Source of the DNA: Seison nebaliae
Lineage: Eukaryota; Rotifera; Pararotatoria; Seisonacea; Seisonidae
Direction of reading: 5' to 3'
Assembly (NCBI GenBank): GCA_023231475.1
Contig: JALJEE010002257.1
Coordinates: 1 to 28,005 of the forward strand
Length of the DNA: 28,005 nucleotides
The notes below the pieces were generated by a model. It ran no database searches. It saw only the letters and a list, made by a program, of their open reading frames with translations, and was not told the origin of the DNA. The position numbers were made by a program, and so were the translations under genes. Shown here one piece after another: positions 1,437 to 26,768 of this stretch (positions are counted from its first letter, which is position 1; each line of letters begins with the position of its first letter).

Positions 1437-3713
1437 TTATTTGTTATCTGATATCCATTCTAATTCCATATTTTTTGCAATGAATGCGTACATATCAGAT
1501 GTTTCATCGATTTGTTTGCTAACTGGTTTCCCACCACCATGTCCAGATTTTGTGTCAACCAATATCATTAAAGGAGATTTCTGTCGATCATTCGATCCAA
1601 TGACGTCTTGTAATTTGGCTGCGAACTTAAGAGAATGTAATGGTACAACTCGATCATCATGATCACCTGTTAAGAGTAAAGTTGCAGGATATTGAGAATT
1701 CCCGTTTTTGCAGTCCTTAATATTATGAAGGGGAGAATATTTAAATAAAATATCAAATTGTTCACTTTGGGTACTACAACCATATTCTGGTATCCATGCA
1801 TGACCGATGGTAAATTTATGAAATCGTAACATATCCATCACGCCAACATGAGCAACGGCTACACCGAACAATTGTGGATTTTGATTAATTGAAGCACCAA
1901 CTAATAATCCTCCATTACTACCACCATTTATACATATACGAGAATTTTTCGTATAACTTTCTTTGATCAAATATTTGGCAGCTGATGAGAAATCGTCGAA
2001 CACATTTTGCTTTTTTTCTAGTTTTCCCTCGTCATGCCATTTCTCACCAAATTCTCTAAAATAATTTTAAATAAACAAAGTGATTTTTTATAGAAAAAGG
2101 AACCCTCCACCACGTAATGCAGGAACGGCAAAAATTCCTTTGAATCTTTTCACCCAAATCAATTGAGAGACTCGGAATGACGGTAATAGTGATATGCCGA
2201 AACCACCATATCCGTAAAGAAACACCGGATTATTTCCGTCTTTTTTCATCCCCTAACAATTTTTTTAATAATTTAAAAATTTCAAATGCAAAAGTACAAT
2301 AACTTTCAATGATAAAATATACATTGGAATTTCTGTTCCATCGTTACTTTTATATTTGACTTGTTCCACTTTGCAGTCATTGGTGGAGAAATCATTCAAA
2401 ATGGTTTTCCTTAAAATTTGCGGTTTCAACAAATTTTCCATTTTCAGCAATTTTAATTTGAAAACGTCACCGGGAGACAGGAAAGATGTAAATTTGAGAT
2501 ATGCCACTGAATCATATTTGTCTCCAGATAATTGGATAATTTGTCCTGCCGTTGGGAAAATGATTTCATTGAGATATTCTCCTGTTATCGAATCGAAAAT
2601 TTTCAATTGATGTCGAACAGAATGTTGATATGAAACGAGGAAGTAGTTGTTTATGCCGAATAATTTGGCGAATTCGAGAACATCTTCTTTATGTTCCGGA
2701 ATGAAATCTTTCACGTCTTTCAATTCATTCTTTTCATTGAGGAGAACCTCTAAAACTTTACCTCTCTTTGCATCATTGGCAGTTGTCTGGATAAGAAATC
2801 GTTTCCCGTCATTTCCAACATATTCATATTTCCCGTCATTCTTATCGAACAGTTTTATCCATCTTAATTTATCTAAATTATAATTGAATTCACTGATCCA
2901 TAAGCGATTTGTTGCTTCACATCCTTTCTGAATTCCCAAAATCATATAGTCGTGATCGGTCGAAATTTGTATATCGGAAAGCAATGTGGGGTCGTCGAAT
3001 TTCATTATTAATTTATCGTTCGGTTGATCATCTTCCAAAATATGATGATATAAAGAATGATAATCGTTTGAAGTCGTTTCTGTTCCATCACAAACACCTT
3101 CCTGTTGAGGATATGAATGATAAAAAAACGATTTACCGTTCGGCATCCATTGCATCGATGAAAATTTCACTTTTTCCAATTTATTCTCCAAATCTTCAAA
3201 ATCATCAAAATCATTTATTCGGCGGAAATGAATCGTCAACCAATCTGATCCACTAACACTCTTTCCATATGCCAATAATCGGCCACTTTTATGAAAGGAG
3301 GTCCCTGACAATGCAATCGTTCCATCTTCCGACCATTCATTTGGATTTATAAAAATTTTTCGTTTTTCTTTATTGTAAATATCAGATTCATTTGTTGCCC
3401 AATATAATACATTCTGATTTTCCAGACCACTATTCTCGTAAACATAAAAGAATTCGCCGCGACGGAAAGGTGCAGAAAATTTAGGGAAATTAAAAATTCT
3501 AGACAATTCTTCATGAAATTTCGTTCGAGTTTCACATTCGTCGAGGAAAGGACGAGTTAATTTATTTTGATTCTCCACAAACTTCTTCGTCCTCTCATCA
3601 TTCTCATTTTCCAGATATCGATATTCGTCCAAGATTTTCATTTTATTGTATTCGTCAAAAATTGAAACTTTTTCTGTTTTCGGATAATTCCATTTAACTT
3701 CCTTCTTTCCCAT
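1437..3713 (-). CDS. PREP: Prolyl endopeptidase (prolyl oligopeptidase, S9A), 3 exons, 725 aa
   Basis: Exons are 3713-2304, 2252-2104 and 2055-1437. The introns, 2253-2303 (51 bp, phase 0) and 2056-2103 (48 bp, phase 2), both have GTT donors. The 725 aa product fits the family length (human about 710). Sequence throughout both the beta-propeller and the C-terminal alpha/beta hydrolase domain matches PREP. The catalytic triad is visible: Ser about 566 in GGSNGG, Asp about 653 in DHDDRVVP and His about 692 in KSGHGGG. The Asp-His spacing of 39 equals that of the mammalian enzyme. Family members are cytosolic serine peptidases that cut short, proline-containing peptides such as neuropeptides after Pro. 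The ATG at 3711-3713 ([11 protein letters not shown]) is the first in-frame ATG; the open frame above it has no ATG. The gene is divergent from B4GALT7. Confidence 0.95.
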
Positions 3714-4462
3714 TTTCACACTAGTTTGAACTGGTTCAATAAATAATTTTCTAATTATTTGATGTCTAATTTTCAAGATGTCAAAAATAAATAATTAGAA
3801 GAAAAATAAGAAAATGACCTAATTGCAAATAATTGAAAGATGCGTTCTGTTTTAAGCCACATCTATAACATTGATACGAATTATAACCGAACTTTTCATT
3901 TAATTATCAATTTATATTCCCAAACTACGCACACTATACGAATTGTACGTATTATAAGCGAATGGTAAATAATAATAAATATCCATTGTCCATCACTTCA
4001 ATATGTTGTTGATGTTTACGAAAAAGAAATCATTCGATAAAGATAGAATGGATAGACTAAATTACAGTACTTTGATAAATATTCTTAATAAAGATATGAT
4101 TAGGAAAAAACATAATTTAAATAATATTGGCAATATTGTATTGCCATCACTGTTCTCGGGACAGTCTCATAACCTTCATAAATTAAAATTTCTCATTTTT
4201 TTAAATTTTGAGGATGAAAAGAAAATTACGACAGAAATTCGAAAAATATAATTTTGGAATTGACAAATTTAATTTCTTTCTCTGATTCATATTTAATAGT
4301 TTGAAAATTCATATAATTACTAATTGTTTAAATTATACAAGTAGAGAGATCGAACAACATGAACAACTGTGAAATTTTGATTGAAATAGAAGCTTCTGAT
4401 TCGTCAAAAATTCCATCAATTTATTGGAACTTTTCTGTGGAGAAAGAGAAGCATGAAATTAA
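3714..4462. other. Head-to-head intergenic region between PREP and B4GALT7
   Basis: These 749 bp separate two divergently transcribed start codons, so they should hold the promoters of both genes. I see no clear TATA-type or other named motif. The region contains a small ORF at 4003-4251 and an upstream ORF at 4359-4466 on the plus strand, either of which may be 5' leader of the B4GALT7 transcript. Confidence 0.6.
4003..4251 (+). CDS. Hypothetical 82-aa ORF in the PREP/B4GALT7 spacer
   Basis: An uninterrupted ATG-to-TAA frame of 82 codons, rich in Lys, Asn, Ile and Leu, with a less biased centre (GNIVLPSLFSGQSHN). I do not recognise the product, and see no signal peptide, membrane segment or known motif. 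It lies about 210 bp before the B4GALT7 start on the same strand. It could be a small independent gene, the first cistron of a shared transcript, or a chance frame in AT-rich DNA. There is no conservation evidence. Confidence 0.25.
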   Translation: MLLMFTKKKSFDKDRMDRLNYSTLINILNKDMIRKKHNLNNIGNIVLPSLFSGQSHNLHKLKFLIFLNFEDEKKITTEIRKI

Positions 4463-4466
4463 ATGA
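4359..4466 (+). promoter_or_regulatory. Upstream ORF (35 aa) whose stop overlaps the B4GALT7 start (ATGA)
   Basis: The ATG at 4359 opens a 35-codon frame (MNNCEILIEIEAS...) that ends in TGA at 4464-4466. This stop overlaps the B4GALT7 ATG at 4463-4465 by two bases (ATGA). If transcription starts upstream of 4359, ribosomes would end exactly at the main start, a layout suited to termination-reinitiation or translational damping. It is an inference from position; no transcript start is visible. Confidence 0.4.
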
Positions 4467-5581
4467 GTAATCTTACTTATAATTATCGAAATATACAATT
4501 GACCATTATTTTACTTTGGACTCTACTTGTCGTTTGGAGGATTTATGGAAGGTTTCTTTCTGAAGTTTCTTTTTAATATTTCCATCTGCTAATGAAGAGG
4601 GAAAGGAGATGAACATAAATTGGCAGTGATAGTTCCTTATAGAAATCGGTTGAATCAATTAATGAAATTTATTCCAGTAATAAGTGAAAAGTTGAACAAT
4701 GAAAATATAAGACATGAACTTTTCATTATACATCAATCAGATAAATATCGGTTTGTTATTATCAACTTAATATGACTGAAAGAATGTAATATTTAGATTC
4801 AATCGAGGAGCATTGATTAATGCTGGATTCTTATCACTTCTCCCTTTAGAATTCGACTACATAGCAATCCATGATATCGATTTACTACCGGAATCGAATT
4901 TATTATCTTATCAGTTAAACTTTACTTCTTCATTTCAAAATTTAATATGCTGTAAATAATTTCAAATACAGATTTCCAATTAAATCCGGCATTTTCCATT
5001 TGTCATCACCAAACATACATCCACTCTATAATTACTCGACTTATTTAGGTGGCATTGTCTTGATCAAAAATGATTTGTTTGAAAAAGTTACATTTTGGTT
5101 GATAATAATAAAAAGATAATAAATCAAACAGATAAATGGAATGCCGAATGATTGTTGGGGATGGGGAGAAGAAGATGACGAATTTTATCGTCGACTCACG
5201 AAAATTAATGTGAGAATTGATCGATCGGACAATCCACAATTAACAAGAAATAATTCATTTCATCATCTACATTCAAAAGATGACTTAGAATTCAATGAAG
5301 AGCGAGACAAATTACGGTATGGGAAGCAAAGAGATTTACGAAGGAAAGATTCGTTGGAAAACGGATTAAATTCATTAAAATATTTTTTGTCATCAAAGAA
5401 ATATTTGTGTCTCTCTGATGAATTAAATTTGTCTCAAACGTATTGTTTTCACATGTTAAATGTGAAATTAGTGTGCAATGAAAATGTGGAACCATGGTGT
5501 CGTCATCCAAAAGGTTTAGACGATCGATCGGCAATGCAATTATTAAGAAAATTGAGGAATTTTAAAAAATTAAAATTATAA
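4463..5581 (+). CDS. B4GALT7: Xylosylprotein beta-1,4-galactosyltransferase (galactosyltransferase I), 5 exons, 307 aa
   Basis: Exons are 4463-4551, 4598-4750, 4797-4913, 4972-5086 and 5132-5581. The four introns are 46, 46, 58 and 45 bp, all with GTT donors. The product is a type II Golgi membrane protein: a short cytosolic tail, then a signal anchor at about residues 13-27 ([13 protein letters not shown]), then the catalytic domain. Family motifs are present: [21 protein letters not shown], the metal-binding DID at 107-109 (HDIDLLPE), [13 protein letters not shown], and the acceptor-site [13 protein letters not shown] at about 167-179. C-terminal Cys residues match the family. Length (307 versus 327 in human) fits. 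The enzyme adds the first galactose to xylose in the tetrasaccharide linker of heparan and chondroitin sulfate proteoglycans. B4GALT7, not the lactose-type B4GALT1-6, is indicated by the C-terminal half. Confidence 0.95.
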
Positions 5582-5605
5582 TAAATTTTTATTTCGAATA
5601 ATAAA
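5580..5605. terminator. Interleaved polyadenylation signals of two convergent genes
   Basis: On the plus strand AATAAA occurs at 5580-5585, overlapping the B4GALT7 stop codon (5579-5581), and again at 5600-5605. On the minus strand AATAAA (TTTATT on plus) lies at 5588-5593, about 85 bases past the dynein stop at 5678-5680. The signals for opposite strands alternate within 26 bp, so the two mature mRNAs would be complementary at their 3' ends if both signals are used. Confidence 0.55.
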
Positions 5606-5677
5606 TTCGTAACGAAAAAATAATGATCAAATTTAAGTTTCAATTTGATACGTTCACCTTCTGATGAATTGGGATAT

Positions 5678-8600
5678 CTATTTGATATCACATAATAAGG
5701 CGACTCCTCTCATTGTCCAAAAATCTTTTGTATGATCCGGACGATCTAAACAAGTTAGATTAATAACCGTCACAAATTGCAAGTCAGTTCGTTGTGCCTT
5801 CTTATAAATGGGACAATTGTAATAAATTTCTCTTGCTGGTTCAGCAGTTCGCTCAGCAAATACATGTACTACTGGCAATTGAGAGAAAGAAACTTTGGGT
5901 TGACTTTCAACTAAGACACTTCGACGTCTATCCCAACCGGCTCCTTCTAAAAATAATCCGTAGATATATACCCCTACTAACGGTGCTGTTTTGATATCTT
6001 CTTTTTGCGATTTTGTCACTTGATTATTCATGACGACTGAATCTAATGTCCATCCGTCGTTTTGTCTTGTTACTTCCTGTTTCATAGCGGTAAGGAAACC
6101 TTGAGGATTGAAGAACCCTCCCAACCAAAACAAATTGGGACGTACTTCAAATAACCAGTGATGGTATTGAGTATTACGGTCGAGTAATTCAGTGAACCAA
6201 AATCCGATGGTGGTTGAAGACCAAGATAATTTCGTCCAACCAGCAGGCACTTTCGCATCATAAATATTATCTAAACATTCTCGTAAATTCTCATTGAGAA
6301 TAATTGTGCCGTCAACAGCCAATCGTAAATCAATTAAATCTCTTCTGACTTGAACGATAACTTTGTTCATTCGATCGACCTCTTGTCTCAAAAAGATACA
6401 CATCGGCTGATTAATTCCATATAATTTCACTCGATCCAATACTTCATGTGGAACATAGTCAGGTGGCAATTTCCCCACCATATCCCCACACATTCGATAA
6501 ACGACAGATTCTCTTGTTTCTTCTCCTTCTCCTGTTGACTCTTTTGGTTGGGTGGCCATTATCGTATCAAACATGTTCTGAGCCGTTTTACTCAAATATC
6601 TGTAAAGATATATTTATCAAAAAATTAGTAGAATAAGAAAATGTTTATGGTAATTTGAAACGTGATATCTGCATTATAATGGAGACCATATGCTTGAGGT
6701 GGATCAATTCTCGGCAACGTATCGATATAATCGAGATATTCAGTTATTGTTCGTACAGTAGGAATGTAATACATTGATGTAAATTTCGATTTGACGAATC
6801 GGAATTCCTCCTTAAACATTTCATCATTAAACCAAACCTTTTTTCATAAACATTATGAATAAAACGGAATAGGAAGAAAAAAAACTTTGGCAAATGTCTT
6901 TAATAATTTCTTATCGAAATCATCTGTTACACGCCCTCCATATTGAATTTCGGAAATCATATATCGGACGGCACTCCATGAAATTCTCTATAAAATCGAA
7001 AAGATGCTAATAATTAATGGAATTGAAAAGAAAATAACGCTTCCTATTTCCATATTATCTAAATATCGTTGAACATATTGAATGGTTGCTTGGAAGTCAG
7101 ATGCATTGAATTCATAAGGAATATTCCATCCTAATGGTCCATATTTTCTTCGCTCTTGAACGACTGAATGAAGATACGATACTGCGTATAATAAAGGTTT
7201 CCATTGAGGGGCATTTGTATAATTTAATAAATCGAGAGAAATGTTTTGATAAGTTCTTCGGAGACCAGCTCTTAAGCCTTGAGGAGGTTCATTTGTTAGT
7301 CGAATACCAATTTGTAACAAATTTATTGGGAAGTTTGGCATAGGGGCCGTTGTGATCCATAGGCGGAAATCCTCATGAATATTTTCAGTTGTTGTCAAAA
7401 CATCCAACAATTCATCCATATAATCTAATCCTAAATGACAATTCTGAAATAATATCCATCCTCCATTTGTAAGACCACTTTTAACTAATCGTCTAGCATG
7501 AACTTCTTGTCCTTGTCCCATAGAAATCGATCGACATTCCACACTGTGTTTCTTCGCAAATGCTAAAATCATATCAGTTGGATCACTTCCCATTGACAAC
7601 AAGAAAATGATGGGAGTACGTCCATTACTTTCATCATAAGCTTGTTGCATATCTAACATTACTGGTTCCGCATACATCTGTGATAATGATTCGGCAATAT
7701 ATTCTCTTGCTTGCATTAAAATACGATCTGGACACCAACAACGAATGAGCAACAGTTTTCCAAAAGAATCTAATGATGCCGAGTAACCATCAGGTATTTC
7801 TGATTTTTCTGGTGCTTCACTATCATACCAATGTCTCCATGCTTTCTCCAATTTAGGAATACGTTCCAATATGTCAGAGAAAGTGTTCAAATGACTTAAT
7901 TCTACCAAATTTAACCAGGTAGCATCATTTATCCATTTACATGGTTTTGGTGTGACATTATTCAAATCGAGACTTGCACCGCCTTTCACTAATACATTCA
8001 TTTCCGAAACATGTATTCTACCTTTCTCCATATCAATCTTTATTGTCATTAATAAGACAAATGTGTATCGATCTTCTTCATAGATACCTCTTGATGCATA
8101 ATAAAATATTATATGTGTTAAACGATTTACAACATTCTCTATTCGTCTGGCAGGTATCGGTGATGGTTGTGCAGTATGCATACTTTCATCGAATTTTTTT
8201 AAAAATTGTTGCAGAGATGTTTGATACATATTATTCACAACAGTCATTTCAACGAGAAGGAAATAAAGAATTGATCCTCTGGTTGCAATTGGACGATATT
8301 CCTCTCGAGCTAAATTTATCTTCTTTTCAGTAATTGCTGCTATCTTCAATTTCTCACGAACTTCATTTGATGTCGATTTAGTTGTGTTTAATACTTCAAG
8401 TAGACTGGGATCGTCTAATAAACTGCCTTGGACGGAACTTAGTTTATAAAGTAAATTATCTTCCAATTCTTTCAATTTTCTCTTATCATCTGTCACGTTG
8501 TTCAATAAGTCAATTCTTTCAGTTTCCAATTCTGCTTTCTCATTCGTAATAACACGTCCCAACAATTGTTCTTCTAATCCTTTCACAGTGACAGTGAAAT

Positions 8601-11600
8601 CAATAACAGAATATTGAGCATATACTTCTGGTGTATAAATGGGATTTGATAATTTTGTCGTTATATATAAACGAAATCCATCAGCAATCGCTATCTCTTT
8701 ATCTCCCACTTTCACATTCAAAGTTTTACCCAATTTTATATAATTTCTATCTGCTACATTGTCAAGGACGGGGTCTAATTCTTCACCAACGTCTTCAACT
8801 AATAATGGTCTTCCCAAAGACACACAATCCTCCAAATGGTTTCGGAACCATCGACTATTCAGATGACTGACAACTAATGAATTATTTTTCTCTCTATTTT
8901 TAATCCAAGTTTTCGCTTGAATTTGAGGATCGATAATTAAAGGATATCGAGTAGCACCATGAATGATAACACCGTTTTCTATCGATAATTTATCATTAGG
9001 TAAACCTTGAAGATTCCATTCAATAATGGTGTGATCATCGGTAAACATTTCGATAAAATTAAAAATTCCACTATTGGGAATTTCAAATTCACCAATTTCT
9101 TTCCTCCATCGTTGTACTAGTTTTAATCGGAAGAATTGATTAAATGTTCCACCGTATGAAAGAAATGTGACGGAAAATAAAACATCGCCGACTAATTTTT
9201 CGATACGTTCTTGAAACTCGTGAACATTTTCTGTCCATCGAACACGTTCGTCTCCCAATCCTTCCACTAAATTACTGGCAGCCATCATTTTCTGTTTCAA
9301 GATATTTGCCTCCTCCTCCAATGCTTCCTTCTTCCTACGAGCATCATTATAACGATCAGTAAGTGCTTGTAATTCCATTTCTTTTTCTCTTAATTGAGCT
9401 TCAGCAGCTTCCAATTCATTAGAGGCTAATTGGAACCGATGTTCTTGGGCGGCTAAATTATCTTTCAACGGCATCACATAACGGTTAACATCATAATATT
9501 TACTTAAGGATAATGTCCATTGAGCCAGACCGGCAACATTACCACAAACCTTTTTCGCAACTTCCATTTTATAATCTTCAGCTAAAAAATATGGTTCTAA
9601 TAATTCAACTTGTTCACCATCAATATTATCTTTCGGATATTCTTGTAACTTCTTAAGGAAACCGACATCGCTTAGAACTCTCAAGGATTCAGACCAGCTA
9701 GGTTTAATAAATTCAGGTTTTTCTGCGTCGATTATTACCGGATCTAATCGTCGTCTCATATAAATCAATACACAATCCATAATACGTTGGATAAGATGGG
9801 GTGGCTTTCCTAATTTTCTGACAGTTTGAATATCTGACGGTTGGATAGTTTTTAACGCAGCTTCAGCTGCATCTAATGCAGGTTTGGCGGCAGCTAATTT
9901 CTCCGAAGCAATTTCTTTTTCGGCATTTATTTGTTCAACCAAATCCTCTGCTTTCTTCTTTACTTGTGAGACTTGATTTTTTATAATTTCAGCTTCTTCC
10001 GTTTGAACTTGTACTTGCTCCAATACTTTTTGTGCAGCTGCATTCAATACTTCTAACTCTTTCTCTTTCACAACCAATTCTTCTGACAACATTAACACAT
10101 TCTCTTTCGCTTCTAACAATTTCGAGAGACCTGACTGCATCTTTTCTTTCAATTTCTGATACATGACAAGTTGATCGGTATAAACCTTTTTGTACACATC
10201 CAAATAACTCAAAAATGATTTTGGTGTTACAAATGCACGACGTCGATATTTATTGAAATATAATTCACAAGATGTGCTAATCGTATCATGGAAACGACTC
10301 ATTGTCTCGATGACACTTTTTCGATTTTCGTTCGAACATTCCATGGGAAATCGACCGATGTGATGTGAAGCCACCGCAATCAATGCGTCTAATGGCCATT
10401 TCTCAAAGAAATCGATAGTACAACCTGACGTTAATGCTGGAAATTTTAATGACCGATTACGGAATTTATCACCAACAGGTGAGAAACATAAGGCGACATG
10501 AATATTTGCCTTAGCTTTCTCTATGAAGAAATCATACAGAGCCTCGTTTGTACGATTAACTTTCGGATATTGTTTTTTCATCATTGGAATTAATGCTTGT
10601 GTAATCTCTTCTAATTCGTCTTTTGGGAATAAGTTACTTACTTCACCTGAACTGATGACATTGTTAAGATATTCAAGGAATCCTTCATGTTTTACATCAT
10701 TATCAGTAAATATAAATGTGACCCCAACTGAAGTGACAGCTAATCGATATAATACTTTTAAATGATCCAGAAAATTGCTAATATTATACGTTCTTGTTAG
10801 AGCTATTTGGAAGACTTTGTAACCAGAAATGAAGGAAGCCAATTTCGTTAAGGATTGTTTACCGGAGCCGCCAATACCTAATAATAAAAGATTCCCTCGT
10901 GGCATGGTCAATACTCGTGATATTCGTACTAAATGTATCATTGCATTTTGGAAGAAAACTAAATCCATATTACATCCACGAACATCAGCGTTCATTCGAT
11001 GCATAAAAGTTAATAATTTTGCTTTCAACTCATCAAATCCTGGAACTAATTCATAATAAGTAGGAGATTCTTCTTCATCTCCTATAAAATCTAAATCGGT
11101 TTTCATGAAATTAACGAAATAAGCATCATTGGCAAACGTTTCTCCCGCTTCCTCTTCCATATATTCAGCAGTCAATCTCATGAAAAGATTTTGGAAAGCT
11201 TTCTGATCGTCTTCTGAAATAAATCTATCTGCTATAACTCTTGTCATTTCATGTCTCCACAATAAACGGAATGTAGCTTTATCTGAACATTCTTTACTTC
11301 GAATTCTTAACATTCCTTGCCAGATTCGTGAGAGATCTCTTAAATTAAACACGTAATGAAATTTGGCCGGAGTTGGTAACATTCTTACTTTGACCATCTG
11401 CCAAACTAATCGAGTTAAAGGAACAAGATTTTCCACCTCTTCAATTACTACAGGTGAGAAACCTCGTTCTTTACAGAAATAACCTTGACCAATTATTCCA
11501 AATATTTTATCAACCGAATGATTGGATGGAAGCGTACAATTAAAAATAGAGAAATGTCTCTTTAATCTTTGTGGGATATCATTTCTACCGCCACCACCAT

Positions 11601-14600
11601 GAATCATAGCAGCAACAAATTGTATGTCATCAATCACTAAGAATTCTCCTGGTTTAGTTAACGAATAGAAACCGGAGAATTCGACTAATTGTCGGAGTAT
11701 CTCATTGGTGACCTGATCTCCCCATTCATTAATTTGAGGCATACTAATATCATCTATAAAAATAGTCATACGACGACCACCTGATGGACCATATGTATTT
11801 CCTGCACGTTTATCTACAAACGATTCAACAATCGATTGCAAGATTCCTGGTGTTGTTGTGGAAGAGAAGTTTAATGTCTTCGATGTATCCGTCTCTGGAT
11901 TAAGTTGTTTTAAATAAGTATTTATCATTGCTGTTTTAGCCGTTCCTTGTTCCCCAATGAACAAAACACATTTCCCTTGTTTCGTGATGGTTTTTAAAAG
12001 GAACATGGAACGAACATTATCAATATTTGGAACTAGAATGGATAAATAATCTGGAATCGAATGTTTTGGATAATCGTATTTCTCAACCTTATTCGACCAA
12101 TGATCCCATTCACCATTTGGTTTGACATAGAAATCGAACAGCGATCCTGATTCAATTGTTGGAAGGGGCATGTCTGAAAATTTGTCAAAAATGAACTCTT
12201 CAAATCGATACCGATCTGGCAGTTCCAACAGAGCACCCATACTCCACATTAAGGAGAATATAATCAATTTCTCCAAATGTGCTTTTTCGATGGTGGATTC
12301 GTTTTCTAATAAACCTCCTAACAAGTTACAAGCTTGAATGATGAAATTCGAATGGAACACAGACATTTTCAAAACCAAATTATGTGTCAAATGTAAGAAG
12401 AGTGGTTCGAACAATTTTTTGAAAGTACTCAACATTATCTGATGGGTATTAGGCGATCGATGTACTAACCATGATTTTAAGAACGCTTCCCACGGCAACA
12501 CATTGAGACCCATGTAAACCATACCATTTCTCGAGACAGTTGCAGGAGATGCATTGTCAATGTTATGGACTTCAAATACAATCTTACAATTATTCGCCAT
12601 TGGTATACGATCGCCATTGGCTAAGGTTAATGTTTTGTTATCATCTAAAACTGAATTTAAATTTTCTATCCAAATGGCATCTACAGGTCCATCCAGAACT
12701 AACCAAACATGATCATTTTTCTTCACTTTCAATGTTCTTCTCCATAATGTAGAGAAGATTCCATCAGTCCAATCATTAGTCGCTACATCTAATGTACCGA
12801 ACATTTCACCAGCAGTTATTGCTTTCGGATTCATTCGCATCTCTTTATGTGGTTCATTTAATAATGTCAATGTTTTCATCATTGTGTTGATGCAAGTCGT
12901 TTTTCCAGTACCCGACGGACCTAACATCATCAAGCCATGTCTAGTTAATTGTGTTTCAAATAGTTGTCGTATTTTCAAATTCCACAGCGGCTCATTAACC
13001 AAATTCAACTCTTGAACAACATCTGTAATTATTCTTTGCATTGTCGAATAATCAGCTTCTTTCAGTACTTTATCCGGGAACAAATCTTTCAATAATGACA
13101 AGAATAGAATTTCGTCATTATCTACCAATTTTGAGATGTTCATATCTCTCAACACTCTCAGAATAATGTCTTCTTCAGAATCATTCTTTTTACTACGTCT
13201 TTCTCCTCCTGATGCTCTCAGAACAGAAAGAATATTTCTGAGACCGAAATCATAATGAACTTGTTTACTTAATTGTTCATCGCATAATTTATACAAAGTA
13301 AAAAACTTTTTGGATAATGGAACACTTGTCTGAAAACCAATACTAGCTAATTTGACCCGAATAATAATTTGTCGATCTGGTACCATCATCGCTACTGTTC
13401 GAAATTGAATCTTTAAATTCTCTGGTAATTCCTGTCGACCAGCATAACCGGGATTCATTGTAATAAACAAACCAAATTCTTCATTCATTGAACATGTATC
13501 ACCATCAGTAAATACAAATGATTCAGCATGTGTCTTTCTAGCTATTAATAATACGGAAATCTGTTGTGCTGCTACAGATAATACGGGCAAATTAATTCGA
13601 TTAAATTCATCGAAACATCCCCAAGTGCCTGACATACCTAAACCTTTATAAATTCTTCCTAAACCTCTGAAATCCATTTGATCTGACATATTGAACACGA
13701 CCACATACTTCCCCAAAGCTTTTCCCATATCTTTCGTCGTTTCCGTTTTACCTGTACCGGCTGGTCCAGCAGGTGCTCCACCATAATTCATTCCAATAGC
13801 TTGAGCCAAACTAATATAACATCGATCAGTTAATGGAGTTATAACAAGACGTTCGGTACATCCTAAGAATTCATTTTGATATCGAAATATTACATCAGTA
13901 ATATGAACATTTAACACATCTTCATCAACATCGAAATAAAATCGTGATTGTTTGATCCATTCGAAATCTCCAACTGATCGTACATTATGTCGACACAACT
14001 CATCAAAAATGTCACGTTGATGAATGTGAATGATGACAAATGTTTGGAATTTTACTCGATCAAATTTTGATAATTCTTTCGCCACTTCATTGACGAGATC
14101 TGAGAGAATTTGCTCCCAATATTTGTTAGTCTGAGTCATCAATAATCGATTTTGTCTTGCCGTTAACAAAGCCTTTTCTGATGAACTTGTCCAAATGAAT
14201 TGCAAGACTAATATTCCGATTTGTGCTAAAGCGCCTCTTAGAAATCCCATGAGAGTATAATCTGGATCATCTGTTATCTGATTATAAGCACTTCTTATAA
14301 TCATATGGAGTGATCCTCGTTGAATTTTTAATAAAGTATTCAACCAAGTTTCTACATTGCCCGTGGCTGATACATGTTGATAAAGTCGTACAATTTCACG
14401 TTCTTTCGAATATAAGAATTCGATAGTATCATAATCCGTTTTCGACCAATTAATATCATCCACATTCTCAAAAACACTCAATAAATGAGGTTGGATTGTA
14501 TGAGAATCAGAGGCTTGTCCAAGAATCTTTAATAAAACTGGATCCGATACAAAATAGAATCTTGGAAAGATTTGACGTTTCGATTCCAAATATCCCGAAA

Positions 14601-17600
14601 GTGACTTCCTACAAAACTCTAATTGTTCCAATAAATGAGGAAGGATTTGTGATAAAGTGTCATCAGTTGTGCAACATGTTAAAATGTTTCTTGTCTCGTG
14701 AGCTTTCATCATAATCTTGAGCCATGATTTGTCAATGTTAGAAAAGCGTTTAGCTTCTTTCGGTAATTGTTTAGCAATATCTCCACTGGCAAAAACTGCT
14801 TCTAAATAAATCCACAAGTTCTGCACTTGTACCCAATTCTCCAAGATGTCGTTTGTCATTGTTAATTTATTAATAAATTGTTGAATTGGTTGACGGAAGA
14901 ATGTGTTGTAACGATTAGATAATAAAGAACTAAGATTCATTAACGATTCTTCTAAAATTGTTATAGCTTCAGTCACTTCAGCACCTTCCAACAATAATTC
15001 ACCTCTATTTTTAAATGTTGAAAATGAGAATTCTCTTTCATCCCATTCATGTTTTATTTGTTTCAATTTATATTCGATATCTTTCTCTTTCATCGCCGTC
15101 AAACAAATTTCCGTAATGTCATCCTTATTTTTCAACAATGGCGCTTCCATTACATTTTTGAGGAGAAATGTTGGCGATTCTACCGCAAATGTATGACCAG
15201 TAACTTGTTCAATTCTTACCCAATGACGTAATTGCATCGATTTGTTTGTCATCATTTCGAGTAGTGGAACACATTCTTTAAAATCATCAATTCTTTTTTT
15301 TAAATCAACATATGCGGCCCATGTCTTCAATTCAGTAGGTAATCGATTGCAAAGAACTTGAAATTCATGAATCTTCTCACCAACCAATTCAATATCGACA
15401 TCTGACCATGTCATATCATAAAATGAATCGATTGCAGTGTTGACGACTCGATATAAGGAATATAAGCGATTAAGAAAATCTAATTCTTGTTTTGTAGCAT
15501 CTAGAACTGGATATTCAACTTTTGGCACACCAAATATTCGATTTCCTGCTGTAAACGTTTCGTATTTCCTCCACAAATGATCAAACTTACCACGAAAAAT
15601 GGCTAAGCGATCACTAGCGATAGACGGTTCGATTCCTGCTTCATTCGGTCCTGCCGTTTCATACTCTTCCAGAAATACTTTAACATCGTTCTTGAAATCT
15701 TCAATGGAATTTGTGAACTTTTCAAATAAGGGTGGCTGAATTTCTAATAATCGATCAGTTACAACATTCTTAAAAATTTGAATTAAGAAACTTTAAATAA
15801 GAAAATGACTAAACGGCTTTAGCTGACAATTGATTAAAATGATATCGTAGAGCATCAATCTGATTTAATTCATCAGCAGATACATAAATGTCGAATTTGG
15901 TAAGAATGGCATAAATATCTTCGATGGGTCCAATTTGTAAATCAATGTCCATAAATTTCGACCGGAATTCATTCAAAGCGTCAATCATGAATCGCGCATC
16001 ATCAAGATCGACAAGTTTCTTTTCCAATTTGGGATTCATCTCATCGATAAACATGAGAATACTATCCATTTGATACCGATATTTCTCCCGAAGTGCTTGT
16101 CCCAAAATGTTCGTTAGATTTTTCGACAACGATTTCAACTTCTGTATTAGTTTCTCCGTATGCATCTCTAACGGTTCAACCACGATTTTTGCTGCAACTT
16201 TACTTAATCTCTCATCAGTTGTTTCCGTCTCTTGTAGTTCGGCCATAACATCTGAAATATTCGGATTCTTTCCCATAAATTCTTCAACACGTTCCGTGTG
16301 ACTGGTCAAGAACAAATGATTAAATTCCTCGAAAGTTGTCAGAGTTTGATGAAATTTCATTTTCTGATCTTTAATTGCAGCTGACAATGATGTCATAATG
16401 AAAGCAATATCTTTATTATCGGAAATCACTTTAAAATATCCACGATTGACCATATTATATTCAGATTTTTGTGGTTCGGATACTGATTGAAAATTACTTC
16501 TTTTTGGAGTGAAAGAAGAAGCATCAGGTGACATATGTGAGTAAGTGGCGAAATTCTCATCATCGCCCCATTTTACTAAATATTTTCCAACTCCAACAAT
16601 TTGATGAACAACTTTAATCAAATTTAATTGCATTCGATCGATATTCGGTTCTAATACAATATCTTCGTCATCCAGAACAATATCACAAATCAGTAACGGT
16701 TCAATGCGTTCCTTTTGAGCGGAATTATCAGTTCGAAATAATCTTTTCGAAGCGGCTGCTGAACGATAGAACAAAGTTGTGATAACTCGTCGTTTCACTG
16801 CATCCAGAGAATTCTTAATGGCTTTAATCATTGCGTCGATAGTTCGCCTCTCATATGAACTGATGAATTTCATCATATCATCAATCTTTTTCTCTTTGCC
16901 CAATGCTGGATCGCGAAACTTCTCCATTGCACTATGCATATTCATGGGAAGTTTATAAAACTCTTCTTTTGTCATTTCATTCCTCGTTTTTCCTGTCAAC
17001 AAGGAAATATCATATTTGTCGGACCACAAGAAACTTTTGACGAGACTCTGAATGTTGTCGCATATTTGTTCGGAAATGTTATTCATTCGACGTCTTGCCG
17101 TCGAGACGTTCTGCTTAATAATATTAGTAAATTCATTAAATGTTACCGCATGTTCAGGCAATTCCACTATCTTCACATTTTCCAAATCAATTAACAGATT
17201 ATAAACTCGAACATCCAATAGATAACGTGCCTTAAATAATAAAAGATATTTTAATATAAAACTTAAAAATATACAAACTTTTGTTACATCTTGTTCAATT
17301 CGATCTAACACATCTGAACATTCTTTCAAGTAACTATCGGCGTTATATGATATCCATGTAATATTGGCTAAACCCTCACGGAATGTTGATTCTGCTTTAG
17401 TTACATACTGTCCAGTTATCAATTTTAAATGAGATGGAATACTGGATTTCAATGATTTCATCCGACGAACAAGTTCATATGCGCAAGATTTCCTAGTTTT
17501 TAATGTTAACGAATCGGTATGCAATTTGTAACAGAATGGTGGCATTTCAATATTCAACCGTTTCATTATGCGAATTTCTCTCAACGATTCATCGACGTTT

Positions 17601-20331
17601 GGCGAGAAATTTACCGAAAATTGATTATTGGCGTATTGGAAAATTGGTAAGACTAAAGCATCCAATAATCGATTAAGATTTTGTTTCCACAATCTAATCG
17701 CGATAAAAAAAATATCTTTTAGAATTGAAGATAAATGGAACTTGACATAAGCATTCTCAAATTGAATCAAATAACTACAAGCTTTATTATAACGATTGAT
17801 GACAGGTAGAGCGGTAGCTGCACTCATAACATTTGGATATTTCCGAAATATTCCCATCGGCTGTTCCAATCGTTTGAATAATAATCTCGCCCAATTCACC
17901 ATTCCACTATGGAGAGGCATATTACGTTCTAAAACATGATTAGCATGATTATGCTTAGCATTATATATTTCCTTAATATTCTCTAATTCGTCATTATATT
18001 TCGTCACCATAATCATTAACAGTTCTTCCTCATAATTAAAAAAGGGAATGTTCAATTCTTTGAACTTATTTAAATAACGAATCGATTCATTTGATGAGTG
18101 CATTGGACATATTGTCCGTTTCATTAAAGCATAAAGATCGACCTATTGAACAATGGAAATGAGAAATGAGTAACAAATAATTTAACTTTCAAATTCTCAA
18201 TCTCCATCAATAAATTGTCGTTAAATCTTTCGAATTGGAAATCCGTTTTCTCTATATGGAGAACATCAAAATCTCCTTCATAAAATGCATCTGATGTTTG
18301 TTTGAAGTTTTTTGCAATTCTCACCATATTGTCCATCGACGAAGAGGCTAATGAGGAGAATTGTTCGATCCAATCAACAATGGTGTTGATCTATTTATTT
18401 AACACATTTCGAAATAGGAATATTTCAAAAAAAAATAAATTCTAACTTTTTTTAAACGTTCTGCAAATTTTTGGAATTTGATGAATATATAAACTTGAGA
18501 ACATTCCAATGGTTTCTCATCAGTGTTCTATTAATGTTTCTTAATAAAAAGGAAGAGTAAATGAGGAAACCTTAGCAATTTCATCAGTAGCACCATTATA
18601 CGCCTTCTTATACGCATCGAATAATTCCAGACATTGACAAATACGTAAACGCAGAACGGCCGATGGAATTTTCCTAATATCTTTCGTTCCATCTTCCGTC
18701 AGGTATTTATAACAACTCGTCACCATTTGAGTAGTTATTTTAACTAATAATGATGATATTTTTTCAGGTGTGTTGTAATATTCTGAACAAGAATTTATTA
18801 AGCGAACGGTATTCATTATTTTAGGTATTGAGTTAATCATAGCTTGCTACAAAGAATATAAATTATTCTTTTGACAATAAGGAAAAAATAACTATATCTG
18901 TGGTATATAATGAATGACAATGTTCCATTAAAACATCTAAATATCTTAAATTATCTTTTGTTTCGTTGGCATAATCAATGATTCGATTCATCAATCTCTT
19001 CCATTGCTATGTGGATGAAGAGTTTTAATAATTTGAAAATAAAAGAATAAACTGGAATCTTCTTACTTTGCGCACCATTTAATAAATATATCACATAATT
19101 ATAAGTCGGTGTGTTCAACTGATCGAGCATAAAATTAAATTTTGCACTCATCGTCTGCCAATGTTCTAATTCGACTATTGGACCTGTATCTGATCGTTCT
19201 TGTCGAATTTGATCGCTGTCAATAAGTAATTGGTTTATTTTCACTATCCAATGTTCCACCGTATCCTCCAAGTTGTTCACAAGTTCCGGTTTTTTCAATA
19301 ATTTCAAACAATCACCAGGGCTTTTTATGTCTTTAATTTCCTGCGGTAAAGGTTCATCAAATTTAATTATACTTTTATTAATTGCACTACAATCTGTTAA
19401 AAATTATATTTCTTTACATAGAGTAATTTTTCTAACGCTTGAGGAAGGTAGAGAAAAAATTTATTTGGTCAACAAATTTTTCTTTTTTCAATGTAGCTTC
19501 GCTTAATGTTTCATCTAAACTTGTCCACCATTCTTTATTCACAGTTAGAAAGCGACCAAATACGTTGGAAATTAAGAAAGAAAATTCTTGACAAATATCA
19601 GATTCTTTCAAATTGATTGTGTGATAAAAAATATTCTAAAATAATCAAGTTACAAATAATTAGTCAATAAGTATTTCAATAAGTCAATATATTAAACATT
19701 TGAATAATTTGCAGTATTGAGACCTTCTTTCTTAACACCATCTCGTTTTAAGAATATGAAGAGATATCCGTTTAAACTAATTTTATTTTTATCTGCATTC
19801 TTCAAAAATTCTTTGGACAAGATGTATAATCGAGGCATGGTAAGTTGTGCACCACGTCCAGCACCTTCAAAATGGAATTAAATACTTAACTTAAATCTTT
19901 GTTAACTTTCCGGTATTATACCATTCTGATAAGCAAAGATAAGGGCGTTTAAATCTCCGTCTTCGAATTCTTGTATAGCAGGCCATTCCTATGACACAAA
20001 CGAATATTTACCTTGGGGAAATGAAAAGATATTGAAACTGTAGTATTATCCAGCATCATTTCAATTATCCGATTCTGTAACGGTCCCGCATCTAATCCTG
20101 TTAATGCTTGTGTAGTATTTTTGATCGTAATACCCATTATTTCGGAAAAATATGTATGAATAGAAGTGACTGTTAGTTCTCTATCTTTTCGATCATTTTT
20201 ATATTGCAGCTAAATATTATATATAGTATTATTAACAATTTCATCAACAACGTTTTGATAACTAAATGAACTTTTTTCTGCTCCTCCTGAGCTTTAGTTC
20301 CCCCAACAACTTTGAAATACTGATGAGGCAT
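5678..20331 (-). CDS. DNAH5/DNAH8-like: Axonemal outer-arm dynein heavy chain, DNAH5/DNAH8 type, 17 exons, about 4618 aa
   Basis: Exons in transcript order: 20331-20272, 20209-20039, 19988-19907, 19864-19698, 19635-19437, 19393-19053, 19006-18893, 18846-18571, 18527-18447, 18390-18187, 18142-17742, 17693-17279, 17230-15815, 15768-7039, 6987-6886, 6837-6662, 6599-5678. They total 13857 nt, all in frame. The 4618 aa length matches human DNAH5 (about 4624). All 16 introns are 42-62 bp with GTT donors. The tail comes first, then six AAA modules. P-loops: AAA1 GPAGTGKT (about 1977), AAA2 GPSGTGKT (about 2259), AAA3 GEQGTAKT (about 2580), AAA4 GIGGSGKQ (about 2940). The stalk coiled coils (about 3180-3300 and 3410-3490) flank the microtubule-binding domain. 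The C terminus ends [10 protein letters not shown], as in DNAH5/8. It is the ATP-driven motor of outer dynein arms in motile cilia and sperm. The start ATG at 20331 has an in-frame TGA just upstream. DNAH5 and DNAH8 cannot be told apart here. Confidence 0.96.
17231..17278 (-). other. 48-bp stop-free intron inside the dynein gene
   Basis: The sequence runs AAA|GTTTGT...TTTAAG|GCA, phase 0, 48 bp, with no stop in frame, so retention would add 16 hydrophobic residues ([14 protein letters not shown]...) to the soluble dynein tail. I call it an intron because its size, GTT donor and AAG acceptor match its neighbours and because removal restores family-like spacing. Confidence 0.75.
17694..17741 (-). 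other. Second 48-bp stop-free intron inside the dynein gene
   Basis: Donor GTTCCA follows GTC AA and acceptor GATTAG precedes A TTG TGG (phase 2, 48 bp, no in-frame stop). Removal gives FENAYVKLWKQ, which restores the Tyr-x3-Trp spacing typical of this part of the dynein tail. Retention would insert 16 residues. Confidence 0.75.
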
Positions 20332-20753: not shown

Positions 20754-20822
20754 CACTGTGTGTTTCATAAATTGTGGAACATAGGAAATCCCATATGCTA
20801 TCAAAAAAAGCTTCAAAAAAAA
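20754..20822 (+). repeat. Left terminal inverted repeat of the Tc1-like element (69 bp)
   Basis: It starts CACTGTGTGTTTCATAAATT and ends in GCTTC followed by a run of A. It pairs with 21795-21862 over the full length, with a 2-bp indel in the GTGTG tract and a handful of substitutions. The central block GTGGAACATAGGAAATCCCAT is identical in both ends. Confidence 0.9.
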
Positions 20823-21784: not shown

Positions 21785-21794
21785 CCTCATTCCA

Positions 21795-21862
21795 TTTTTT
21801 TTTGAAGCTTTTCTTGATAATACATGGGATTTCCTATGTTCCACAATTAATGAAACACAGTG
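21795..21862 (-). repeat. Right terminal inverted repeat of the Tc1-like element (68 bp)
   Basis: Read on the minus strand it starts CACTGTGTTTCATTAATTGT and ends in AGCTTC plus an A tract, the mirror of the left end. TA follows at 21863-21864. Confidence 0.9.
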
Positions 21863-22307: not shown

Positions 22308-22487
22308 ATGAATATAATTAAAATTTTATTTTATTCCGTTATTCTCATCATCTTTTTAATCTTCAAAGATAATTCTGATAGAATGTGTCCGGTGAATTTG
22401 TCACCATCATATGACGGTTCTACACTGAGACACATTAACAACTTTGTTTTCCATCTTCCTACAGCTTGCTGGAAAATTATATATTGA
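22308..22487 (+). CDS. Candidate small secreted peptide, 59 aa (43 aa if spliced)
   Basis: ATG 22308 to TGA 22485-22487. The N terminus (MNIIKILFYSVILIIFLIF) is a good signal-peptide-like segment, followed by KDNSDRMCPVNLSPSYD and a C-terminal CWKIIY, giving two Cys. The mature part is less AT-rich than its surroundings. Inside it, GAC G|GTTCTA to CTTCCTACAG|CT (22424-22471) is a 48-bp, 3n, stop-free segment with a GTT donor and a pyrimidine-rich acceptor. That fits the intron style of this genome and would shorten the peptide to 43 aa with its two Cys about 10 residues apart. No family recognised. A chance ORF in AT-rich DNA is the main alternative. Confidence 0.28.
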   Translation: MNIIKILFYSVILIIFLIFKDNSDRMCPVNLSPSYDGSTLRHINNFVFHLPTACWKIIY

Positions 22488-24564
22488 GAATATTGAACTA
22501 TGATGTAATATTATTTAAATTAAAGTGTTAAAAAGGAATGCAAATGGAATAATGATGGAAATTATTTAATTTTTCATAAATTTTTTATTTCTGCGACATA
22601 ATTGAGGAACCAATTGTACTCCAATACTGACGCTCGCACAATTTAATAATTTTTTGACTTATTTATAAATCCATTAACATTTTTATCCAAAATTAAGTTA
22701 AATATTTTCCTTGAGAAAAAATGTGAGGGAAAATTTATATAGTTTGATAGAAATTCGATAACGTAGAGGAAAAATTTGACGAATTCTATTGAAGGAGAAA
22801 TATGTTATTTTCCCATAGATTCAATTCCTGTAAATACAGATCGTGCAGTGCACCTGTTTATTGTCAACGTTCCATTTGTAATTCTCATAAATAATTGTCG
22901 AACTTCAAATTCCACTCACTCATGTTTTGTGTGAAATAGAGCTGTTATTTGTTAAGTAAACGGATATATAGTACATCCTAGGAAATTGAGTCGTGAAATT
23001 GTTTAGGAACGAAGAATGACGAAAAACGGAATTCGATATTTATGTGATTGATTGAACTCAATTAATTATTTGAATAAATTGAAAATTGGTGTTGAAAGAA
23101 GAAAAATCAATAACCTTTCAAACACTACTCTTAAATTTTTTTTTCTTATTTGGCAGTCGACGTAATTATTGGTAATAATCATTCGTTGAAATATTGTTCA
23201 GTCAATTATTGTGCAATCTTTTCAATGTTGTTCCTGAAAGTTTTCATAAAAGAAATAGTTCGGAAGAAAAAAAAGAAGTAATTATACACAGGAATAAAAT
23301 ATATTGATAATTATCTAGTTGAGCATCATAAATGAGAGTTGATCATCATATGGTTGACATTTTTGATGTCAGATGTTACAAACGAAGATGAATCGTCATG
23401 TTAGTTGTAATGAGATGGTTTCTCACAATTTATCTCCCAAAAGGATTTCGTATAGTTTCCTTAGAGTCTTTTAACGAAACTCATCGATGGACAAGAGAAG
23501 AAAAATGAAGACAACTGTTTTGAAGAAAAGTTTGGAAAGAAGGACAAATTGAATAAATTATCCAGGAGAAAAACAACACATAAAACCAATAACAATTAGG
23601 AAATGGAAAAATGATACGTAATTTGATCGAATGTTGTAATAGTCGGTTTGTTTAATTCAAATCTTCTAGTTATGGCCAATTTGACAAGAAAATGTTGTAG
23701 CACAGTTGGATAACCGAATTGTAAGATCTTAAATTACCCTGCAATCTATGCACCCAATTATACAGAGAAAGTTATATGAAATACTCTATCTATCATTCTG
23801 GATTGTCAAGAGAAACTTTATAAAATTATTCTTACCTGAAAATGTTGCTGCCACTCGTACATGTGATCGATGTGAGTTATGAGTCAACTCTTTTATGTAT
23901 TCTTCGTCGATCCATTCAGCACATGGTGACGACCAATGCCATTAGGATTGTTAAAGAAATTTGTTCATCTTAAATTGACCATATAAAATAATATTATTAG
24001 AAATTTCAACTAATTTCCATATGAGTAAAAAGTAAGTGTTTTCTTTTCCAGAAAGTAAATTTCTCCTCAAAATCACTAGTGATGTGTGAAGGAATGAAGA
24101 AATCCAATTTTCAAATAGGACTATCTCTCAAAAACTATCCAACAATTCTCGAACGAAATTTATTCTAGGCGAATTATTCCAGTCGACTGTATTTTCTAGT
24201 TAACTTCTACGTAACTATTATTCTGTCTATTAGACACTATCTAACTTCTTGTGTACATCTTTCCTCCCAACTCTGTTTATTCTTTTCCTTCCATATATCG
24301 TTGAGTGTTTTTTGTTCATTTAAACAATTTATATTAATAACCATAATCAACATAAACTGATTATACGTTTTTGTTAGAGACAAAGTTAATACTAATCTTC
24401 ATCTTATTGATTAGTTGATAATTATTGAAAACGAAATTGATAACTCGAAAATTATATGTAACTTTTTTTTCCATCAGCATGATGGAATGTATATCATTGT
24501 GGAAAAATACCATTCTAAGAATATAATAGAAATATTGTGACGAAAAAAAAAATTGCTTTTTATT

Positions 24565-24675
24565 ATGGAAGAGAAAGAGTATATTTCTGTAACTGATCTT
24601 CACATTCGTGTAGATGGCTCTATTGAAATTGACGTCCAAAGTTTTAAGGTAAAGTTTAGTTGTTTAAGAATTTGA
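24565..24675 (+). CDS. Candidate micro-ORF or exon (36 aa), function unknown
   Basis: ATG 24565 to TGA 24673-24675. The product begins MEEKEYISVTDLHIRVDGSI and is less AT-biased than its surroundings. AAA|GTT donor-like sites occur at 24640/24641 and 24653/24654, with a CAG acceptor at 24689 (introns of 49 or 36 bp). The 36-bp option leads in frame to YRPNDIIYKRIV. Parts faintly recall the S1 domain of exosome subunit Csl4, but the spacing does not fit, and I give this little weight. Confidence 0.15.
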   Translation: MEEKEYISVTDLHIRVDGSIEIDVQSFKVKFSCLRI

Positions 24676-25393
24676 TGTTGGATAATCAGAAACATACATC
24701 GCTATCGACCGAATGACATAATTTACAAAAGGATCGTGTACTGCTAAAAGTGTGCTTTTTATCAATTCTTTTCCGGTTATACTTGAAGAATTGGAATAAA
24801 TAAAAACATTTTTTTTCGACTAATCAATAACAGCCAACAATAATATTATTTCAAATGGAGTAAATCGTGAAATGTTAACGAATTTTTTTGTTTACCGAAT
24901 AAAGATGAAACACAGAAATTACTTTCCTCTTTATGAAGAACGTATGTTGAAACTAGTAAGAATACTATGAATGAATTGAGTGAATGGAAATGTTTTTTAC
25001 TTCAAATTTTTAATTGTTCGTAGATTTGTAATGTAAGAAGATCTTCTTACAATTTAAATTTTACGTGGCGAGGGAAAGGAATTTCAATATTTTTCCCATT
25101 TCTCTTTCCGATTCGTAGTAATGAAAACTGTAATTAATTTGGAGGAAAGGTTTTTTTTCTCCTATCGATAGATACTCTTGTTTGTGTTCGAGCAAAGTTG
25201 AGAATTTGCTGCTGCCAGAAGGACGAGAGATTATTTCAAAAAATTTTAATTGAAATCAATTCGGCAAATGGATTTGTTTTTCTGGTAGAAATGAGAGATT
25301 TCCCTAGAATGTTCATTGTGTGACTATTCTAACATTCTGATTATTGACCATATAAGTGCAGAGTGATTATCAGATAAAATTTTATTAAAGAAG

Positions 25394-25464
25394 ATGGAAA
25401 GAAAAGATTGAATGCGAATGCGAAGATTATGCGAACAGAAATTAAGAAGCAAATGAATAATTAG
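25394..25464 (+). promoter_or_regulatory. Chain of three short upstream ORFs before the GPCR start
   Basis: Three minimal frames precede the GPCR ATG at 25473: 25394-25411 (5 codons plus stop), 25412-25456 (14 codons plus stop) and 25453-25464 (3 codons plus stop). The second starts one base after the first ends. The third overlaps the second by ATGA. If this is leader sequence, translation of the receptor would require leaky scanning or reinitiation. The transcription start is not visible, so this is conditional. Confidence 0.35.
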
Positions 25465-25472
25465 GAGGAAAG

Positions 25473-26768
25473 ATGATGGAGAATAATTCAATTACTTCCA
25501 ACATTGACAATGAGCACATTGTGGAAATGCATCGCACTTTTCTTACCCGATTAATTTGTGGATTATTGTATGGAATCATCATTGTACTTGGTACATTTGG
25601 TAATTCGTTGACAATCTTCATCATATTCAAGAATCGACATGATCATGCTTTCTGGAATGTCACAAATGTTTTTATTGCCAATCTAGCATTTGTTGATATT
25701 GGAAGATGTCTCTTAAACGTCACATTCACTTTCTTCATGGTCTGTTTCATGGAGACAGACGAATGGCCTTTCGGTGCATTCGTTTGTTATGTCGTTCAAC
25801 TCAGTTTGGGCATATCCGTCTACATCAGCACATTTACATCATTAGCCATCGCTGTCAATCGGTATTATGTCATCATTTATCCGTTCAAGAAGTTTATAAG
25901 TTTACGAACTGCCTTCATTATTGTTCTACTTATTTGGATCGCTGCTCTCATCATCATTACACCGATACTCATCTATACGGATCATCGGACATGTGCAGTT
26001 AGTTCTTTTCCTTCTCTTTCATTTCCTCTTCATCATCCACTTAATGATTTTTTCCGATTTTCATACATTAATTTCCTTACACTGGAAATGCGCATGAGAA
26101 AACCATAAAAGAAACCGTCAAATTTAATCTTTCGTTTGATGCAGGAAGTATGGCCGTCGAAGAAAGCGGATAGAACGTACACGTGTGTATCCGATATCAT
26201 ACAGTATTTCCTCCCACTCTCAATCATTGCATTCTGCTACATCAGAATCTGGTTCGCACTCACGTCAAATATGGAGAAGCGGAAACATTCATCCGATTTG
26301 AAGAAGAAACATCGAACAAATCGGATATTAGTTGCAATGATCGCAATCTTTGCTATTTGCTGGTTCCCATTGATATTCTTACATTTCCTTATTAAATTCG
26401 AAATTGGCACTCATCGCGCGTTACCTTGGCACCTCTACCATCTTATTGCTCATTTAGTCGCTATGAGTTCCACCGTCTACAATCCATTCCTCTATGCTCA
26501 TCTCAGCGAAAATTTCGATAATGAATTTCGTAAACTATTATGTCTCTCGAAGAAGTCGAAAATCTCGACGACAATAGTCAAGAATGCGATAGCGATTCCC
26601 CTCGCCCCTAATGGGAAGACGCTGATACAACCAAGGAACGATTTTGTGAAACTGAACAATTTCATTGACAACTCATCGATCGATGAGAAGAAGCATTTGA
26701 TTACATTAGGTGCAAACACCACTACAGATCAACTAATAAGAAACGAAGAAAGAACTACATCTATTTAA
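25473..26768 (+). CDS. Rhodopsin-class neuropeptide GPCR, NPY/NPF-like, 2 exons, 382 aa
   Basis: Exons are 25473-25997 and 26145-26768. The 147-bp intron (GTTAGT...GATGCAG, phase 0) contains stops. Seven membrane segments are visible. Class A landmarks: GNSL in TM1 (Asn about 44), NLAFVD in TM2, Cys105 paired with Cys189 in the second extracellular loop, CWFP at 247-250 in TM6, and NPFLY at 288-292 in TM7. The TM7 and helix-8 sequence (MSSTVYNPFLYAHLSENF) is typical of NPY/NPF-type and related peptide receptors. The TM3 motif is NRY (129-131) where most members have DRY. The N terminus is short, without a signal peptide, with one N-glycosylation site (NNS, 4-6). The C-terminal tail is Ser/Thr-rich with Cys308 after helix 8. 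The ligand is probably an amidated peptide but cannot be assigned; RYamide/luqin or sNPF-type receptors are alternatives. Confidence 0.9.

Follow-up and report, generated by a model that had tools for sequence, protein, structure and literature searches.

GTT introns and altered U1 small nuclear RNA genes suggest a recoded 5' splice site in the rotifer Seison nebaliae

How is the beginning of an intron marked in Seison nebaliae, a tiny marine rotifer of the order Seisonacea? The question is raised by a stretch of 28,005 nucleotides (nt), the whole of contig C685 (positions 1-28005) in a genome assembly of 36.03 Mb and 846 contigs, which we call the window. An earlier note on this DNA had claimed that all 23 introns in four genes of the window start with GTT, and had read this as a changed 5' splice-site code. 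Our analysis of the window, of a wider sample of the genome and of its small nuclear RNA (snRNA) genes confirms the observation and supports the interpretation. GTT introns occur throughout the sample, and the 5' splice site of S. nebaliae has very probably been recoded, its main U1 snRNAs, in which base 6 is changed from U to A, reading GUU instead of GUA or GUG.

Donor sites in the window and beyond

Every one of the 23 introns (two in PREP, four in B4GALT7, 16 in a dynein gene and one in a receptor gene) could be rebuilt in place with GTT at its start. A GT-AG placement is possible for all of them, and none has A or G at +3, the base typical of U2-type animal introns. GTT makes up 39% of GTN in non-coding DNA (37% in coding DNA), and from the former value 23 of 23 would arise by chance with p ~4e-10. 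The acceptors were also as previously counted: 13 TAG, five CAG and five AAG.

Most of these introns fall in an axonemal dynein heavy chain gene (DNAH8/DNAH5-like; 5681..20331, minus strand), delimited by the public protein SNEBB_005804. The 4618 amino acids (aa) of this protein match the minus strand without a single difference, across 16 introns; at each of them a single GT-AG option exists among the equivalent placements, and it gives GTT in 16/16. Aligned with a nemertean DNAH8 (P0123), ten of the 16 junctions have no gap within 14 residues, namely those of the introns at 6600..6661 (GTTTCA), 6838..6885 (GTTTTT), 6988..7038 (GTTATT), 15769..15814 (GTTTAG), 17694..17741 (GTTCCA), 18391..18446 (GTTAGA), 18528..18570 (GTTTCC), 18847..18892 (GTTATT), 19007..19052 (GTTTAT) and, where homology is weak, 19394..19436 (GTTAGA). 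Homology is gapped near the junction at 17231..17278 (GTTTGT) and 18143..18186 (GTTAAA), gapped at 19865..19906 (GTTAAC), and both weak and gapped at 19636..19697 (GTTTAA) and 19989..20038 (GTTTCA); the intron at 20210..20271 (GTTCAT) lies in an N-terminus without homology. Thirteen of the introns are in the 5' part of the gene and three near its 3' end, separated by a single unbroken exon of about 8.7 kb (7039-15768), which might have originated by intron loss driven by reverse transcription.

The prolyl endopeptidase gene PREP (1440..3713, minus strand, counted from the homologous start MGKK) is 100% identical with the S. nebaliae protein SNEBB_005802 along a 725-aa query. Its two introns, of 48 nt at 2056..2103 (GTTCCT..TTTTAG) and 51 nt at 2253..2303 (GTTATT..TGTTAG), are both placed by the public protein, the first also by the alignment of rgggefgekwh with rgggeygetwh and the second by structure alignment; both junctions lie in sequence aligned to a solved prolyl endopeptidase. 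The public models thus cut 18 window introns (16 in dynein, two in PREP) exactly as in our reconstruction. The public PREP model contains a further intron, starting with GTC (3766-3818), in an N-terminal extension; it is the sole exception among the 19 introns of the two models, 18 of which start with GTT. We regard this intron as doubtful, since the structure alignments begin downstream of Met33, taken as the start: the best begins at residue 49 of 757, and the one reaching furthest upstream among the 46 listed at residue 38.

The introns of the beta-1,4-galactosyltransferase 7 gene (B4GALT7; 4463..5581, plus strand, from reading frame and structure alignment) were placed by frame. Residues 35-282 of its product align to the solved B4GALT7 chains 4irp and residues 34-281 to 3lw6. 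Three of the four junctions, those of the introns at 4751..4796 (GTTTGT..TTAG), 4914..4971 (GTTAAA..ACAG) and 5087..5131 (GTTACA..ACAG), fall inside the aligned domain; the fourth intron, at 4552..4597 (GTTTCT..GAAG), is upstream of it and placed by frame only. Frame only also supports the 147-nt intron at 25998..26144 (GTTAGT..GCAG) in a putative G-protein-coupled receptor gene (25473..26768, plus strand), which was drawn from its reading frame and carries the family name of the earlier note. At this intron a trained gene finder agreed on the donor but took a nearer AG, at 26111.

This gene finder was applied to a wider sample of 26 sequences (218,161 bases), comprising 20 regions spread across contigs (L006-L025), the window and five U1/U6 loci; L001 overlaps L002. 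It trained itself, taking phased coding statistics from long open frames; GT-AG was assumed for the intron ends, and the donor model was flat, with GT only. Under this flat model 91 of 115 introns began with GTT (91/114 once a duplicate was removed), as did 101/133 in a second run that allowed introns of up to 400 nt. When at least 60 nt of coding sequence was required on either side, the proportion was 85/101 for introns of up to 250 nt and 63/69 for those of up to 100 nt (p ~1e-19), and with at least 120 nt on either side it was 49/51. The 100 GTs that lie no more than 15 nt from a chosen donor but were passed over comprise 41 GTT, 21 GTG, 19 GTA and 19 GTC.

After five rounds of training by expectation-maximization (EM), GTT stood at 152 of 158 introns, or 152 of 157 unique ones. 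A GTRAGT-like start matrix yielded 13 GTG, eight GTT and two GTA in round 1 (n=23), and GTT in 150/156 by round 5. Well-flanked short introns of the EM set, drawn from 19 sequences, were GTT in 92/92 and GTR in 0/92, and A or G stood at +3 in 4/157 of the whole set. The five non-GTT introns are 132-348 nt long, and one of them runs across a U1 gene, U1a. Because some introns were merged or misplaced (a prediction at window positions 6811-7038 fuses two), the trained set is a sample and no annotation. In its donor logo, positions -3 and -2 are A and position -1 is A or G; GTT follows, then A or T at +4, a nearly free +5 and T at +6. The acceptor logo is T-rich, with mostly T or C preceding AG, and the first exon base is A in 57%. 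Extrapolated genome-wide, the intron density corresponds to about 25,000 introns.

U1, U6 and other spliceosomal components

A search with the Rfam model RF00003 (gathering score 69.5) found at least four U1 genes, which score 97.4-112.9 bits over the full model positions 1-166; the number is a lower bound, as 41 of 293 candidates were scored. Three of the four start with AUACUAAC in place of AUACUUAC, so that base 6 is A instead of U (A6). Two of these (U1a and U1c, at loci L001 and L003) have the 5' end AUACUAACCUGG, and the third, U1d (L004 1501-1659), carries C9>U in addition (AUACUAACUUGG). The Rfam-type canonical 5' end, AUACUUACCUG, is thus absent from three genes; the fourth (L002, C208:6576-6739) has a canonical end, AUACUUACCUGG. 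Base 6, counted from the 5' end, pairs with intron position +3 in the helix of U1 with the 5' splice site, and A6 accordingly pairs with U at +3.

Pairwise identity is 65-70% among the four U1 genes and 66-70% among the three A6 genes. At such distances A6 does not derive from a recent copy, and the U1 genes of this one genome have not been homogenised by concerted evolution. The U1A-binding loop, with the motif AUUGCAC, has this sequence in the three A6 genes and AGAGCAC in the canonical-end gene. A TAATTAAACT-like 3' box lies 9-20 nt past the end of the Rfam match in eight of ten non-U6 snRNA genes (loci L001, L003, L004, L026, L027, L031, L033 and L034): the three A6 U1 genes, two of three U2 genes, both U4 genes and the U5 gene. 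Of the ten genes compared, it is missing downstream of the canonical-end U1 and of the weakest U2; the loosest form of the pattern has a background of about 0.008 per 40 nt. A search for proximal sequence elements (PSEs) gave forward CACACTTT-like elements at the canonical-end U1 (at -94), U1d (-72), one U2 (-90) and U5, and reverse-strand elements at U1a and both U4 genes. It found none at U1c or the divergent U2, and one U2 had only two bases of upstream sequence.

To what extent the changed base fits the donors can be seen from in-register pairing energies, calculated for the 157 donors using stacking parameters plus approximations for the mismatch and end contributions. The mean is -3.85 kcal/mol for the canonical U1 end and -5.55 kcal/mol for A6, which pairs more strongly with 152 donors, more weakly with four and equally with one. 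Among the 33 single-base changes of U1 positions 1-11, position 6 accounts for the top two (G -5.76, A -5.55; the next -4.41). Starting from A6, C9>U ranks first of 33 further changes for the GTT donors (n=152; -6.22 vs -5.58), and this second change is present in U1d, where it matches A, the commonest base at exon position -1. The two A6 forms favour different donors in the model: A6U9 those with A at -1 (76/152; -6.61 vs -3.95), and A6C9 those with G at -1 (44/152; -9.01 vs -6.62).

The single U6 gene found when 47 of 5404 candidates were scored has a canonical ACAGAGA box (AUACAGAGAAG). An altered U1, an altered U6 and a U1-independent definition of introns had all been proposed to account for the GTT donors, and the 5' end of U1 and the ACAGA-box region of U6 had been singled out for inspection. 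The first proposal is supported by A6 in three of the four U1 genes found. It makes the other two unnecessary, since the U1 end is changed and the U6 box in the gene found is not. Genes for U1, U2, U4, U5 and U6 are all present in the assembly. For U12 snRNA we found no match in the assembly and likewise none in control genomes, which is no claim that U12 is absent; the minor spliceosome may have been lost. The zinc finger of U1C is well conserved in comparison with the human finger, and both introns of the U1C gene, read by eye, start with GTT. The Prp8 core domain lies within one open frame of 2395 aa (L032, C431:80270-81487), and the Prp8 gene therefore appears to have few introns or none.

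Two further features of the window may be mentioned here. A putative Mariner/Tc1-like element, named by eye, is bounded by inverted terminal repeats at 20759-20822 and 21796-21859, of 64 nt each and 92% complementary, and contains transposase-like open frames on the minus strand. Positions 1-660 are of low complexity, with degenerate repeats in which GTGGT and TATGGTGGTCGTGG abound, and are open in several frames.

A probable recoding of the donor and its alternatives

In the mechanism that we propose, the three A6 genes would be the expressed set of U1 snRNAs, and A6 would form a Watson-Crick pair with U at intron +3, making GUU the start signal; this pairing would be the cause of the constraint at +3. 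The donor would then be passed on to U6, where +3U would lie opposite G44. A U.G wobble could form at this place, so that an unchanged U6 may accept GUU. The donors and U1 would have coevolved, in an order that we offer as a proposal: first a duplication of U1 and the coexistence of both decoders, then a drift in which the donors became GUU, and finally the decay of the old gene. On sequence grounds the canonical-end U1 is most likely, if not proven to be, a decaying relic of the ancestral type. It is tempting to go further and see here a completed code reassignment, in which an A6 decoder from a duplicated U1 took over while some 25,000 donors went from GUR to GUU and the old decoder decayed, leaving isoacceptor-like A6C9 (for G|GUU) and A6U9 (for A|GUU) forms, as in tRNA families after codon reassignment. 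We put forward this fuller version tentatively, at somewhat less than an even chance.

Several observations weigh against a recoding by A6. Both the splice junctions and the U1 genes are known here from genomic DNA and protein models alone, and the public gene models may themselves be the output of a predictor, in which case their agreement is no transcript proof; one of them also holds the GTC intron as an exception to GTT. A run that allowed any dinucleotide as donor was uninformative (GT in 9/91, eight of these nine GTT), and GT itself is for this reason taken as given in the wider sample. There is a weak G at +5 (40/157) that A6 does not explain. In the stacking model G6 is slightly ahead of A6, and when the duplex may form in any register A6 is ahead for just 104 of the 157 donors. 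Finally, the canonical-end U1 may be expressed, since its CACACTTT element resembles those of U1d and one U2; none was seen at U1c.

This last point leads to an alternative in which two decoders are at work, an expressed canonical-end U1 serving a few GTA/GTG introns and the A6 U1s serving the GTT introns. The gene does retain an intact 5' end, an Rfam score above the threshold and its PSE-like element, and for the five predicted donors other than GTT the canonical end gives better pairing in four cases and a tie in one, as would tend to happen with any donor without T at +3. However, it lacks the 3' box and its U1A loop is altered, and the five predictions are long or weak, GTR being absent from the well-flanked short introns. 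We therefore consider two working decoders unlikely. Less likely still is that U6 or a protein sets GTT and that the change in U1 is a passive follower or neutral. Position +3 faces U6 G44, with which the usual A or G is described as interacting weakly in excerpts of a review (PMC11732430), and +3U could wobble-pair there; moreover, splicing without U1 snRNA is reported in Entamoeba in part of another source (PMC13292270). Against this, the U6 gene found is unchanged, so U6 alone does not account for the difference of this species, and the change in U1 affects the pairing base in three genes of just 66-70% identity, which suggests that A6 is held by selection. An artefact of base composition or of gene-finder bias might seem plausible in an AT-rich genome where GTT already makes up 39% of non-coding GTN, but we consider it hardly credible: the flat donor model still gave 63/69 GTT, GTT made up only 41% of neighbouring unused GTs, the GTRAGT-biased start converged on GTT, and the public Seison models concur on 18 introns.

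Comparison with known splicing systems

Pairing of U1 with the 5' splice site is regarded as near universal. If recoding by A6 is true, the natural change of a U1 base together with its intron partner would show, on evolutionary grounds, that donors in a living animal are still constrained by U1 pairing at +3; a recent review, in excerpt, assigns the chief say to U6 (PMC11732430). An animal appears to have had its splice-start code rewritten. This would be for splicing what reassignment is for the genetic code, and the old decoder may have left a relic. The Seison genome, and perhaps related ones too, may be misread by gene finders that are tuned to GTRAGT.

Among the matches listed in open-licence papers on splice sites or U1, Seison, rotifers, coevolution and rotifer spliceosomes, a recoding of the A6/GTT kind was not described, and the A6 U1 5' end as a text string matched, among those listed, only a work on Caenorhabditis elegans promoters. 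The Seison genome paper (PMC8351084) refers to introns twice, for gene compactness, and to splice sites once, for the recovery of homeodomains, and its text never mentions splicing or snRNA. In the text of the genome paper on Pomphorhynchus the words intron, splice and snRNA do not occur, and rotifers are unmentioned in the available part of a donor-site survey of 30 eukaryotes (PMC10599564). We also considered whether the published BUSCO losses of Seison are misread introns; this was ruled out, as a similar share is missing from the transcriptome, 35.2% against 36.5% (PMC8351084, in part).

In comparison with U2-type animal introns (GTRAGT...YAG), Seison is alike in its GT-AG ends, its U1, U2, U4, U5 and U6 genes, its U6 box and its T-rich acceptor, and differs in having T instead of A or G at +3 in nearly all sampled introns and A instead of U at base 6 in three of four U1 genes. 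The donors of Entamoeba histolytica are GTTTGT, sharing T at +3 with those of Seison. In that organism U1 snRNA is reported to be absent (PMC13292270, in part), whereas in Seison U1 is present with a matching base change; with at least four U1 genes, it does not belong with the U1-less splicing of the Entamoeba or Cyanidioschyzon type. Fritillaria borealis is likewise an animal in which the whole set of splice sites has departed from the consensus. According to excerpts of its description, 95% of its introns escape GT/AG and the U1 5' end is strictly kept (PMC13326754), whereas Seison keeps GT-AG, as in the window introns, and changes the U1 end. A natural U1 variant with an altered 5' end is also described, in part of one source, for the diplonemid S. 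specki, where a second U1 with a C-stretch at its 5' end exists alongside a canonical U1 (PMC12621601). That variant is said to pair about equally with the canonical donor logo, while the change in Seison fits a shifted consensus. A further parallel is found in laboratory-made compensatory mutants of U1, such as those used for E1A suppression (PMC11732430, in excerpt), in which an altered U1 base restores pairing with an altered donor base; compared with these, the case of Seison is natural and of genome scale.

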